Position numbers and translations under genes: made by a program
Notes under the pieces: generated by a model
What the model saw: only the letters and a program-made list of their open reading frames with translations
Told to the model about the DNA's origin: nothing
Databases searched by the model: none
Shown: positions 9,073-23,673 of the stretch, one piece after another
How the letters are laid out: each line of letters begins with the position of its first letter
Position numbering within the stretch: position 1 is the first letter of the stretch
Origin: Kiloniellaceae bacterium
Lineage (GTDB): Bacteria > Pseudomonadota > Alphaproteobacteria > Kiloniellales > J153
NCBI GenBank assembly: GCA_021776095.1
Contig: JAJFGO010000021.1
Location: 62,001-126,000, forward strand
DNA length: 64,000 nt
Reading direction: 5' to 3'

Positions 9073-9196
9073 GCCTTTCTCTGCGCGGCCGTCGGTTTCG
9101 TGATTGGCCCGGTTCGTCGGCTATTGGTATAGAGAAGGCGCTTGAGCGCCGCCGCGCTTGCCTGACAGCTTCCGCCACAAACTGGTCGCCATCACA

Positions 9197-9988
9197 ATGA
9201 TCGTTCGACAAATCTGGACCGCCAACGCCTACCGCAATTTCAACTACCTGATCGCCTGCCCCGAGACCGGCGAGGCCATGGCCATCGACCCCCTGGACCA
9301 CAAAAAATGCCTGGCCGCCGCCAAGGATGCCGGCTGGCGCATCACCCAAGTGCTCAACACCCACGAGCATGGCGACCATACCGGCGGCAACAAGGCCATG
9401 ATCGCGGCGACCGGCGCGACGCTGCTGGCCCACGCCAACGCCAAGGACCGTATCCCCGGTATGGACCGGGGCCTCGGCGCCGGAGATATCATCAAGGTCG
9501 GCCGGACGGTGGAGCTGGAGGTCCTGGATACGCCGGGTCATACCATGAGCCACGCCTGCCTGCTGTCGCACACCGACACCCCGGCGCTGTTCTGCGGCGA
9601 CACCCTGTTCAACGCCGGTGCCGGCAACTGCCACAACGGCGGCCACCCGAACGAGCTCTATCACACCTTCGCCAGCCAATTGGCCAAGCTGCCGGAGACC
9701 ACCCAGGTCTATCCGGGTCACGATTACATCGCCAACAACCTGCGCTTTACTCTGGACCGGGAGCCGGATAACGCCAAGGCCAAGCAGCTTCTAGGCGCGG
9801 CCGATCGCCAGGATCCGGCCCAAGCCATGGTCACGACCCTGGCCCTGGAGAAAGAGATCAACACCTTCTTCCGCCTGCATTCGCCCAGCGTGATCGCCCG
9901 CCTGCGCGAGGCCTTTCCCGACCTGCCCGATCAGCCGGATCATAAGGCCGTATTCGTAAAGCTACGGGAACTCCGGAACGCCTGGTAG
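9197..9988 (+). CDS. gloB: Hydroxyacylglutathione hydrolase (glyoxalase II)
   Basis: A 263-residue metallo-beta-lactamase-fold enzyme that hydrolyses S-lactoylglutathione to lactate and glutathione, the second step of methylglyoxal detoxification. The binuclear metal motif NTHEHGDHTGGN (HxHxDH), the later DTPGHTMSH histidine, LFCGDTLFNAGAGNC aspartate and VYPGHDYIANNL histidine are all present. The C-terminal part carries NTFFRLHSPSV, the glutathione-contact helix region of true glyoxalase II. ATG 9197 gives the usual length; a TTG 13 codons upstream is possible but less likely. Confidence 0.9.
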   Translation: MIVRQIWTANAYRNFNYLIACPETGEAMAIDPLDHKKCLAAAKDAGWRITQVLNTHEHGDHTGGNKAMIAATGATLLAHANAKDRIPGMDRGLGAGDIIKVGRTVELEVLDTPGHTMSHACLLSHTDTPALFCGDTLFNAGAGNCHNGGHPNELYHTFASQLAKLPETTQVYPGHDYIANNLRFTLDREPDNAKAKQLLGAADRQDPAQAMVTTLALEKEINTFFRLHSPSVIARLREAFPDLPDQPDHKAVFVKLRELRNAW

Positions 9989-10155
9989 GCCCCCTGGCGG
10001 CCCCCGCCGCCACACAAGACCATCTGCCCATTACGCCGTCGCCCGGATTTGATCCGGAATCATCGGTGCGGGCCAGCCCCGGCCCACGCAAAAATCCCGG
10101 ATATGAAGGTTCGCGGGCTGGAAATTGTCTGATTTCCCGGCACGCCCAATGCCTA

Positions 10156-10202
10156 GTGGTCCGATCCTAACGCTTGGTTCCCAAGCGTTAGGATCGGACC
10201 AC
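10156..10202. repeat. Perfect 22-bp inverted repeat with 3-base loop
   Basis: Arms 10156-10177 and 10181-10202 are exact reverse complements separated only by TTC. The apex reads CTTGGTTCCCAAG. There is no T-tract, and the stem is far longer than a normal terminator. It could form a cruciform, a very stable RNA hairpin, or be a mobile palindromic element of REP/MITE type. Confidence 0.85.
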
Positions 10203-10231
10203 CAAGCCGTTGATCTTGTGGGGCGACTTAT

Positions 10232-10258
10232 CCAAACGGATGGGAACCATCCGTTTGG
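10232..10258. repeat. Perfect 12-bp inverted repeat with 3-base loop
   Basis: CCAAACGGATGG 10232-10243 pairs exactly with 10247-10258 around GAA. An outer GCGAC 10223-10227 can pair with GTCGC 10259-10263 across a bulge. On the reverse strand its apex reads TGGTTCCCA, the same as the hairpin at 10156, which suggests the two are related in design. Confidence 0.8.
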
Positions 10259-10302
10259 GTCGCACCATTAGGATGATCTCTTGGCATTTACGAAGCCACG
10301 AT

Positions 10303-10327
10303 CAAGGTAAAAACGCCATTTACCTTG
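10303..10327. repeat. 9-bp inverted repeat, possible operator
   Basis: CAAGGTAAA 10303-10311 and TTTACCTTG 10319-10327 are exact reverse complements with a 7-base spacer. It lies about 125 bases upstream of the lipoprotein gene, in AT-rich DNA. The spacing would suit either a dimeric repressor or a weak hairpin. Confidence 0.6.
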
Positions 10328-10450: not shown

Positions 10451-10876
10451 ATGAAATGCCGCCGACATTGGCGCACACCCAGCGCAACGATCCTCGCTCT
10501 GGGACTGGCTTTTTCCGCCGGTGGCTGCGCTTTGGCGGAACAGGCGGAAATGCTCCTCATACGCCAGCAGAGCGTCCAGGATGCCCTGGTCACCACCGTG
10601 GCAGACGTGGAGAGCGCGAGCCCGGCCCTAGCCCAACAGCTCTACCTGCTGGAAGATGACCTCTACGCCGCCTGCGATCGCCTGCGCGAAGCGGGCCAGC
10701 GCCGGCTTGAGGGGCGGGAGGTCGATTCCGGCTTGAAGTGGCAGGTCATAACCACGCTGAACAAATGCGAATCGACCACCAGCGCGATCGAACGTATGGT
10801 CCAGAAGGCCGAACGCGGCGATATCGACGCCCTTCAGATCACCGGGATCCAGACGAGCGGCTACGACCGCAACTGA
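10451..10876 (+). CDS. Small predicted lipoprotein, function unknown
   Basis: A 141-residue protein with a basic start (MKCRRHWR), a hydrophobic stretch [15 protein letters not shown] and a plausible lipobox AGGC with the acylated Cys at about residue 26. The mature part is almost entirely helical and charged ([36 protein letters not shown]) with two cysteines. I do not recognise the family. ATG 10451 follows AAGGAACCGCCG, a good ribosome site. It stands alone after the hairpin-rich region. A CGGCCC/GGGCCG hairpin around an A-run lies directly after the stop. Confidence 0.6.
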
Positions 10877-23611: not shown

Positions 23612-23646
23612 ACAAAGAAAAAGGGCCGCGCCCAAAGGCGCGGCCC
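23612..23646 (-). terminator. Intrinsic terminator of the phasin gene
   Basis: On the minus strand, GGGCCGCGCC pairs exactly with GGCGCGGCCC around a 4-base loop (23623-23646) and is followed by TTTTTCTTTG. This is a strong textbook rho-independent terminator 28 bases beyond the phasin stop codon. Confidence 0.85.
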
Positions 23647-23673
23647 TTCAATCCGACAAGTCAGTTAGCGAAG

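Follow-up and report, generated by a model that had tools for sequence, protein, structure and literature searches.

A two-hairpin intergenic repeat that is most likely a miniature transposable element of the IS630 kind

What could place long, perfect inverted repeats side by side in a short stretch of intergenic DNA? The question is raised by a locus in the 64-kb window (the whole stretch of DNA that was analysed) in which an initial annotation, made from the sequence alone, described three perfect inverted repeats in a row between gloB and a gene that it named a lipoprotein gene. The three repeats are indeed there: (i) a 22-bp stem closed by the loop TTC (arms 10156-10177 and 10181-10202); (ii) a 12-bp stem with a 3-base loop (arms 10232-10243 and 10247-10258); and (iii) a 9-bp inverted repeat with a 7-base loop (arms 10303-10311 and 10319-10327). 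The first hairpin begins 167 bases behind the stop of the ORF at 9158-9988; the downstream ORF (10451-10876), the so-called lipoprotein gene, has no Pfam match.

Among perfect stems with a loop of 3-10 bases, the 22-bp stem has no longer rival in the window, and its length is far beyond chance: in three first-order Markov resamplings of the window, the longest stems were 9, 10 and 10 bp. The same resamplings contained 1, 4 and 3 entries of at least 9 bp, which puts the 9-bp repeat near the chance level. Since this third repeat also lies outside the repeated element described below and is absent from its other copies, the three-part arrangement that had been proposed does not hold, and only the first two hairpins belong together. 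As had been pointed out, they share the apex TGGTTCCCA, on the reverse strand in the second hairpin, and these are its only two occurrences in the window. The relationship extends well beyond the apex: each hairpin is a homologue of the other in inverted orientation, with 43-base arms that are 79% complementary, and the second stem continues outward beyond a 4-base bulge until it spans 10218-10268. The predicted fold of a 191-base stretch that holds them reaches -98.6 kcal/mol (z = -10.3 against 200 shuffles). Outside the element, no short-loop stem of the window is longer than a perfect one of 12 bp with a 4-base loop at 23621-23648.

The pair of hairpins is not unique in its genome (G000; a draft of 4.98 Mb in 122 contigs, 95% complete). 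Near-full-length matches occur at 14 places, which correspond to 12 distinct insertion sites, as two pairs among the 14 are overlapping contig ends with identical flanks (contigs C31/C13 and C117/C14). Besides the 12 full copies, there are one solo half and one copy truncated where contig C110 ends. Pairwise identity among the 14 places is 90-100%, all of them are bounded by CTAG or a one-base variant of it, and the genes beside the 12 copies differ from copy to copy. The solo half (L015, G000:C73:15520-15572) consists of one B-type hairpin with CTAG on one side only. In 11 further loci with matches to the pattern TAGTGGTNCGA outside the full copies (a match on contig C113 being left out), no such hairpin could be recognized by eye. 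Breaks of the draft assembly coincide with copies of the element, which lie in the overlap of both contig pairs and at the truncated end of C110; element copies thereby mark break points of the assembly.

These repeated copies bear directly on the most ordinary explanations of the locus, namely that it is an intrinsic terminator, or the product of a single local rearrangement, in the interval from gloB to the next gene. A stable hairpin downstream of gloB (the name is that of the initial annotation) would suit a terminator. Yet no T-tract follows the stems, as the annotation had already remarked, and about a dozen copies with sharp ends in other contexts, together with the empty sites of other copies (see below), refute both ideas, to which we give practically no weight. 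The annotation would have read a lack of both copies and conservation as the sign of a one-off event; what was found instead is 12 distinct copies in the genome and relatives in other genomes, although three congeneric genomes are without the element.

The boundaries of the element and its parts are collected in Table 1. No listed ORF overlaps the element body, which is too short for a gene of 60 amino acids (window ORF list). On the right, the flank reads TTAG because the last base of the element is T, where C is usual. Most of the copies in the same genome carry a TGA bulge and a mismatch in hairpin A.

Table 1. Parts of the two-hairpin element and neighbouring features (positions in the window).
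Feature	Position	Strand	Basis or remark
Left CTAG	10153-10156		Sequence; judged by the empty sites of other copies, TA at 10154-10155 is the left TA of the target-site duplication
First base of the element (G)	10156		Sequence
Element body, 113 bp (117 bp with both TA copies)	10156-10268		Boundaries common to other copies
End A (GTGGTCCGATCCTAACGCTTGGTTCCC)	10156-10182	+	Resembles IS630 ends, most of all the transposase-3' side end
Hairpin A, perfect 22-bp stem, TTC loop	10156-10202	+	
Linker between the hairpins	10203-10217		Sequence
Hairpin B	10218-10268	-	Inner 12-bp stem at 10232-10258, 4-base bulge on the inner arm, outer stem to the element end
End B (ATGGTGCGACCCAAACGGATGGTTCCC)	10242-10268	-	Also IS630-end-like; first base departs from the usual G
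Right TA copy (10269-10270) and last target base (G10271)	10269-10271		Sequence; empty sites of other copies
9-bp inverted repeat	10303-10327		Outside the element, unshared, near chance

In search of empty sites, the two flanks were fused with one TA between them for 10 of the 12 copies, and the fused sequences were compared with nine relatives and with the own genome. For six of the ten copies, a relative matched across the junction (the weak match of the window copy is not counted). The clearest case is the copy at C117:10210 (L014), whose junction is ungapped in three genomes of the same genus, with CTAG in G001 and TTAG in G002 and G003; in G005 the same junction shows an 8-base gap. The junction of the copy at C26:47412 (L003) is likewise ungapped in G004, where the match stops about 9 bases past it; a place in the own genome (C26:53499) was also matched across this junction, as a search match only. 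Gaps near the junction are present in the other four of the six spanned sites: one of 2 bases for L007 (in G002), and more gaps than that for L002, L010 and L013. The window copy's own empty site gave just a weak match, in G005 (E = 1.1e-5, 73%). In the clean cases, the element is inserted into CTAG (or TTAG) and the TA is duplicated. Over 109 extracted copies, taken from the loci in hand with contig-end duplicates partly retained, the flanks read CTA...TAG in 97 and the outer letters vary in 12, the TA itself being required by the search pattern.

A TA target is characteristic of several IS630-type elements (see below), and the outer ends of the element were compared with those of autonomous ones. 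Two matrices were built from IS elements of other genomes, with ends collected by rule and CTAGTG left out: (i) one from 15 distinct ends on the 3' side of the transposase gene; and (ii) one from 13 distinct ends on its 5' side. Both were scored against every position of the window on both strands (127,942 in all). The top two positions are the same with both matrices, end A before end B; the scores are 24.7 and 20.2 with the 3'-side matrix and 14.5 and 14.0 with the 5'-side matrix, and both ends are nearer to the 3'-side ends of the IS elements. The best single match of end A (26 of 30 bases, CTAG included) is with the 3' end of an IS element (L265) in G004, a genome of the same bacterial family; that of end B covers 22 of 30 bases. 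Since both outer ends take the top ranks, the element is most likely a miniature inverted-repeat type of transposable element (MITE) of the IS630 (Tc1/mariner-type) kind. Some members of the wider group fit poorly: with IS-end sets picked by eye, which preceded the rule-collected matrices, the ends of one representative of a 31-copy Roseomonas-type group gave -2.2 and -2.8, values reached by about 0.3% of the window positions, and the median end scores over the 109 copies were 6.7 and -2.8. An earlier idea, that ends A and B mirror the two different ends of the IS, was dropped; it rested on a single 3'-side end (L321, entered as L321R) among 10 "opposite" ends, and without L321 both ends are best, in the same order, with either matrix.

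Autonomous elements of this kind are present in related bacteria. The catalytic domain of IS630 transposases (DDE_3) was found in 30 of 58 genomes, the own genome included with two partial matches. An IS630 element at L214 has CTAGTGG at both ends, and its protein (P0001), which holds DDE_3 and HTH domains, was used as the seed for searches that retrieved relatives in 9 of 61 genomes of the order (E up to 1e-40) and in 12 of 385 genomes of the class (E up to 1e-80). Among the 34 transposase loci from both searches, some of which are partial matches or repeat copies, CTAGTG lies within 150 bases on both sides in 14, on one side in 9 and on neither in 11. These loci supplied the 15 and 13 ends of the two matrices. 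Five IS630 copies of the group (L320, L331, L335, L338 and L340), with equal match scores and identical ends, were observed in a single closed genome (G151:C1).

In the draft of the own genome, an intact IS630 transposase was not found: the two partial DDE_3 matches lie on contig C80 (E up to 0.001), no convincing pair of such ends surrounds them (allowing up to 2 mismatches), and no relative of P0001 appears at E up to 1e-40 or 1e-80. A partner IS in the same genome, common for MITEs, was accordingly not found in this draft. We do not hold such a partner to be defining, because it may disappear from a genome and the draft does not cover everything. A search of the collected loci, IS630 and other, for flanking exact TAGTGGTNCGA pairs retrieved only two neighbouring MITEs, in L084.

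In consequence, we regard positions 10156-10268 as a non-autonomous MITE of the IS630 (Tc1/mariner) kind, with a probability of about 0.91. The element is short, repeated and without a transposase gene, its ends resemble those of IS630 elements (partial identity), and two other copies, with ungapped empty sites, show a duplicated TA target. Of the options that the initial annotation had offered, the mobile palindromic element suits the first two hairpins, and neither a structured RNA nor a protein-binding array is needed. A puzzling intergenic structure is in this way explained as a mobile element, whose mobility is in itself unsurprising. In this reading, a transposase acting in trans would bind both outer ends, excise the element and reinsert it at the TA of a CTAG site, where the TA would be duplicated; later, template switching would have copied one arm onto the other, turning a bulged hairpin A into the perfect 22-bp stem. 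The moving would be done by an IS630 transposase and the chemistry would be of the cut-and-paste type, and the window copy presumably arose like its sister copies. If the element moves as proposed, its outer ends would have to be transposase-binding sites.

The architecture of the element is also that of a REP doublet (REPIN or BIME), that is, two inverted extragenic palindromes, each with a short foot, which travel as single-stranded DNA with the help of a Y1 tyrosine transposase (RAYT). REP doublets are described as two inverted imperfect hairpins with a short foot (PMC2817692, in the part cited here), and the present family likewise has two inverted imperfect hairpins with a conserved bulge and mismatch and a 5' foot CTAG on each; moreover, a solo half exists, and Y1 genes are present in two genomes with element matches (G005, 2 matches; G052, 3 matches). 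The foot is nevertheless explained otherwise, since CTAG is the insertion target, and the ends and target are of the IS630 type: the outer ends rank first and second with the IS630-end matrices, and the TA duplication and clean empty sites in CTAG fit a DDE element. No Y1 transposase (PF01797) was found in the own genome, nor in G012, G042, G043, G024 and G004, all of which have matches to the element or to its covariance model; when 20 Y1 loci were scanned with the exact pattern, no pair of these ends surrounded a Y1 gene; and the copy number, about 12, is low. A REPIN is therefore very improbable.

The element, in turn, is most likely of a known kind, the IS630-derived MITE. The following systems are likened to it by description, as given in the cited parts of the sources: (i) the repeat unit of pneumococcus (RUP), of about 107 bp, has no gene, IS630-Spn1-like ends and a TA target, and IS630-Spn1 is its proposed mover (PMC2229807, PMC3049150); it thus resembles the window element in its small size, lack of a gene, IS630-type ends and target, but it has another host and a partner IS in the same genome, whereas in the window element each half is a palindrome; (ii) the Correia or NEMIS elements of Neisseria are IS630-derived miniature elements with TA at their ends (PMC2229807, PMC2817692), alike in kind and in those ends but in a different host; (iii) IS630 of Shigella sonnei duplicates its TA target, preferentially within CTAG (PMC6811581), and ISY100 of Synechocystis inserts into TA with duplication (PMC2170065), the same target in both cases, but these are autonomous elements with a transposase gene, which the window element is without; and (iv) MITEPsy1 of Pseudomonas syringae, a miniature element of 100 nt, inserts after CTAG or YTAA (PMC3189936), but makes a 4-nt duplication and has ends like those of ISPsy2 (listed as "IS5?"), not IS630.

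A further likeness is found among alphaproteobacteria themselves. RIME1 of rhizobia holds two large palindromes. As repeated intergenic alphaproteobacterial elements, for which the cited part of the source gives no known function (PMC2573895), RIME elements are similar by description to the one studied here. In the open-licence literature, no description of the present double-hairpin element was noticed; the kind is known, and its double-hairpin form was not found described.

The presence of the element across genomes is patchy. Matches to its DNA were obtained in 5 of 58 genomes (E up to 0.001) and matches to a covariance model of the half element, built from 19 halves, in 7 of 58 (E up to 1e-4), the own genome being included in both counts; three genomes of the same genus (G001-G003) have no match to either. 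Scanning the genome collection for the pattern yielded 102 stretches, 82 of them in records labelled alphaproteobacteria or plain Proteobacteria, including Rhodospirillaceae, Roseomonas, Stella, Defluviicoccus, Rhizobiales and others. The remaining 20 stretches, from Planctomycetes (16), Cyanobacteria (2), Treponema (1) and Lacticaseibacillus (1), were rejected as members of the family: the first bases are common to all, the interiors differ, and the five that were scored with the IS-end matrix scored poorly. Greedy clustering of the 109 copies at 80% identity produced 31 groups, the largest with 31 (the Roseomonas type), 17 and 16 copies. The plasmid collection held no match to a copy of the element. 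The result ties a family from many alphaproteobacterial genomes to IS630 elements.

Two side observations belong here. A diverged two-hairpin relative (L305, G004:C242:2325-2375) lies in the genome that also holds the IS630 element with the closest end (L265). A separate repeat, about 110 bases long, has the first bases (CTAGTGGTNCGA) in common with the element and differs in its interior; it occurs in Planctomycetes, at L080, L093, L095, L097, L100 and L108 in a Singulisphaera MAG and at L130, L148 and L149 in a Gemmataceae MAG.

The double palindromic halves are the unusual feature of the family, as they are absent from the autonomous IS ends examined. The 51 bases behind the TA in 17 such IS ends have a median fold of -11.0 kcal/mol and do not form the hairpin, whereas 20 hand-picked MITE halves reach a median of -32.2 kcal/mol. 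Each of these halves consists of an end followed by an inverted copy of the same end, the inner arm usually bearing a bulge and a mismatch, and it folds into a hairpin for that very reason. Hairpin B of the window copy matches the covariance model with 62.6 bits, the 19 sequences of the model including another copy of this half. A miniature element of simpler build, about 70 bases long, was observed at L306 and L314 (G024:C1); its two facing CTAGTGGTTCGATTCCAACATTTG ends make up a single hairpin, and this type is possibly the basic unit of the two-hairpin form.

The compensatory changes that the initial annotation suggested looking for are present in the stems. In an alignment of 19 halves, both partners have changed in 12 of 22 pairs, and the score for covariation is 0.465, compared with 0.131 when shuffled and at most 0.086 with the partner slid. 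These halves were chosen among folding ones (the Roseomonas B halves, other halves without a hairpin and all non-alphaproteobacterial copies were left out), and the percentage paired in the alignment is biased upward because non-folding halves are left out. Among 218 halves, 9 have a perfect stem of 15 bp or more (in 7 genomes, going by the records), 73 have one of the listed bulge motifs and 136 have neither. The window copy, its near twin L002 and L012 are among those with a perfect palindrome, the bulge and the mismatch having been lost. We take the bulged form to be the older one, because it is present in many genera, and perfect halves such as that of the window copy probably arose by template switching. 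The copying of one arm of a hairpin onto the other by template switching is a known process. It can both create and maintain RNA hairpins, according to the cited part of PMC8794818. We think that the covariation of the stems is due, at least partly, to template switching during replication, and because template switching can produce it, covariation is here no proof of selection on an RNA. The double-hairpin form therefore offers a natural series for the study of how hairpins originate and are kept up, by template switching or by selection.

Many copies have a particular position with respect to genes. For eight of the 12 distinct copies of the own genome, the insertion site coincides with the TAG stop codon of a reading frame that has a Pfam match; the genes concerned encode (i) a dienelactone hydrolase; (ii) a GFA protein; (iii) an HTH-cupin regulator; (iv) a protein with a PEP-CTERM motif; (v) a PAS-GGDEF protein; (vi) TusA; (vii) a prohead protease; and (viii) an enoyl-CoA hydratase. 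The stop codon is rebuilt on insertion, because insertion into C-TA-G sets the first base of the element, a G, behind the TA; the empty sites of L014 (in G001) and L003 (in G004) show this CTAG as well. The window copy itself does not lie on the stop codon of a long frame. In the pooled set, 58 of the 109 copies close an open frame of 100 codons or more, compared with 74 of 251 control CTAG sites (p = 2.7e-5); the 109 include orthologous insertions common to several genomes, copies duplicated at contig ends and members whose interior differs. Within the own genome alone, the 8 of 12 copies, counted by Pfam-supported genes, compare with 22 of 56 CTAG sites of the window, counted by open frames of at least 100 codons and with the element's own site included, and the difference is not significant (p = 0.11). 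A preference for stop codons is hence suggestive only, and a simple explanation may be that most available CTAG sites lie at stop codons or in intergenic DNA.

The position at stop codons could also speak for a structured RNA or mRNA 3'-end element, selected for its fold and mobile only secondarily: in 8 of 12 copies the hairpin would start at the stop codon of the mRNA, and the stem pairs covary strongly and the bulge recurs. Yet the 12 copies stand beside different genes, the three congeners are without the element, and the covariation may have come about by template switching. No Rfam model matches at its gathering score; six matches lie below it (E up to 1), mostly to microRNA models, and probably reflect the long stem. 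Selection for an RNA fold as the primary cause is unlikely for these reasons.

A broader form of the MITE reading can be put forward as well. The element would then belong to a widespread alphaproteobacterial lineage of IS630-type MITEs whose ends have been made into maintained bulged hairpins and which use CTAG stop codons as a safe harbour, rebuilding the TAG and leaving a strong hairpin at the end of the host mRNA; the fold would be functional either in transposition, with extruded or single-stranded ends, or in the host mRNA. We consider this extended proposal conceivable and rather doubtful. In any case, the CTAG stop codons bear on how mobile elements find harmless sites in compact genomes.

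A minor observation concerns the autonomous IS630 element at L214, in which the stop codon of the transposase ORF (79-1173) is the TAG at 1171-1173, made up of the duplicated TA and the target G that follows it.
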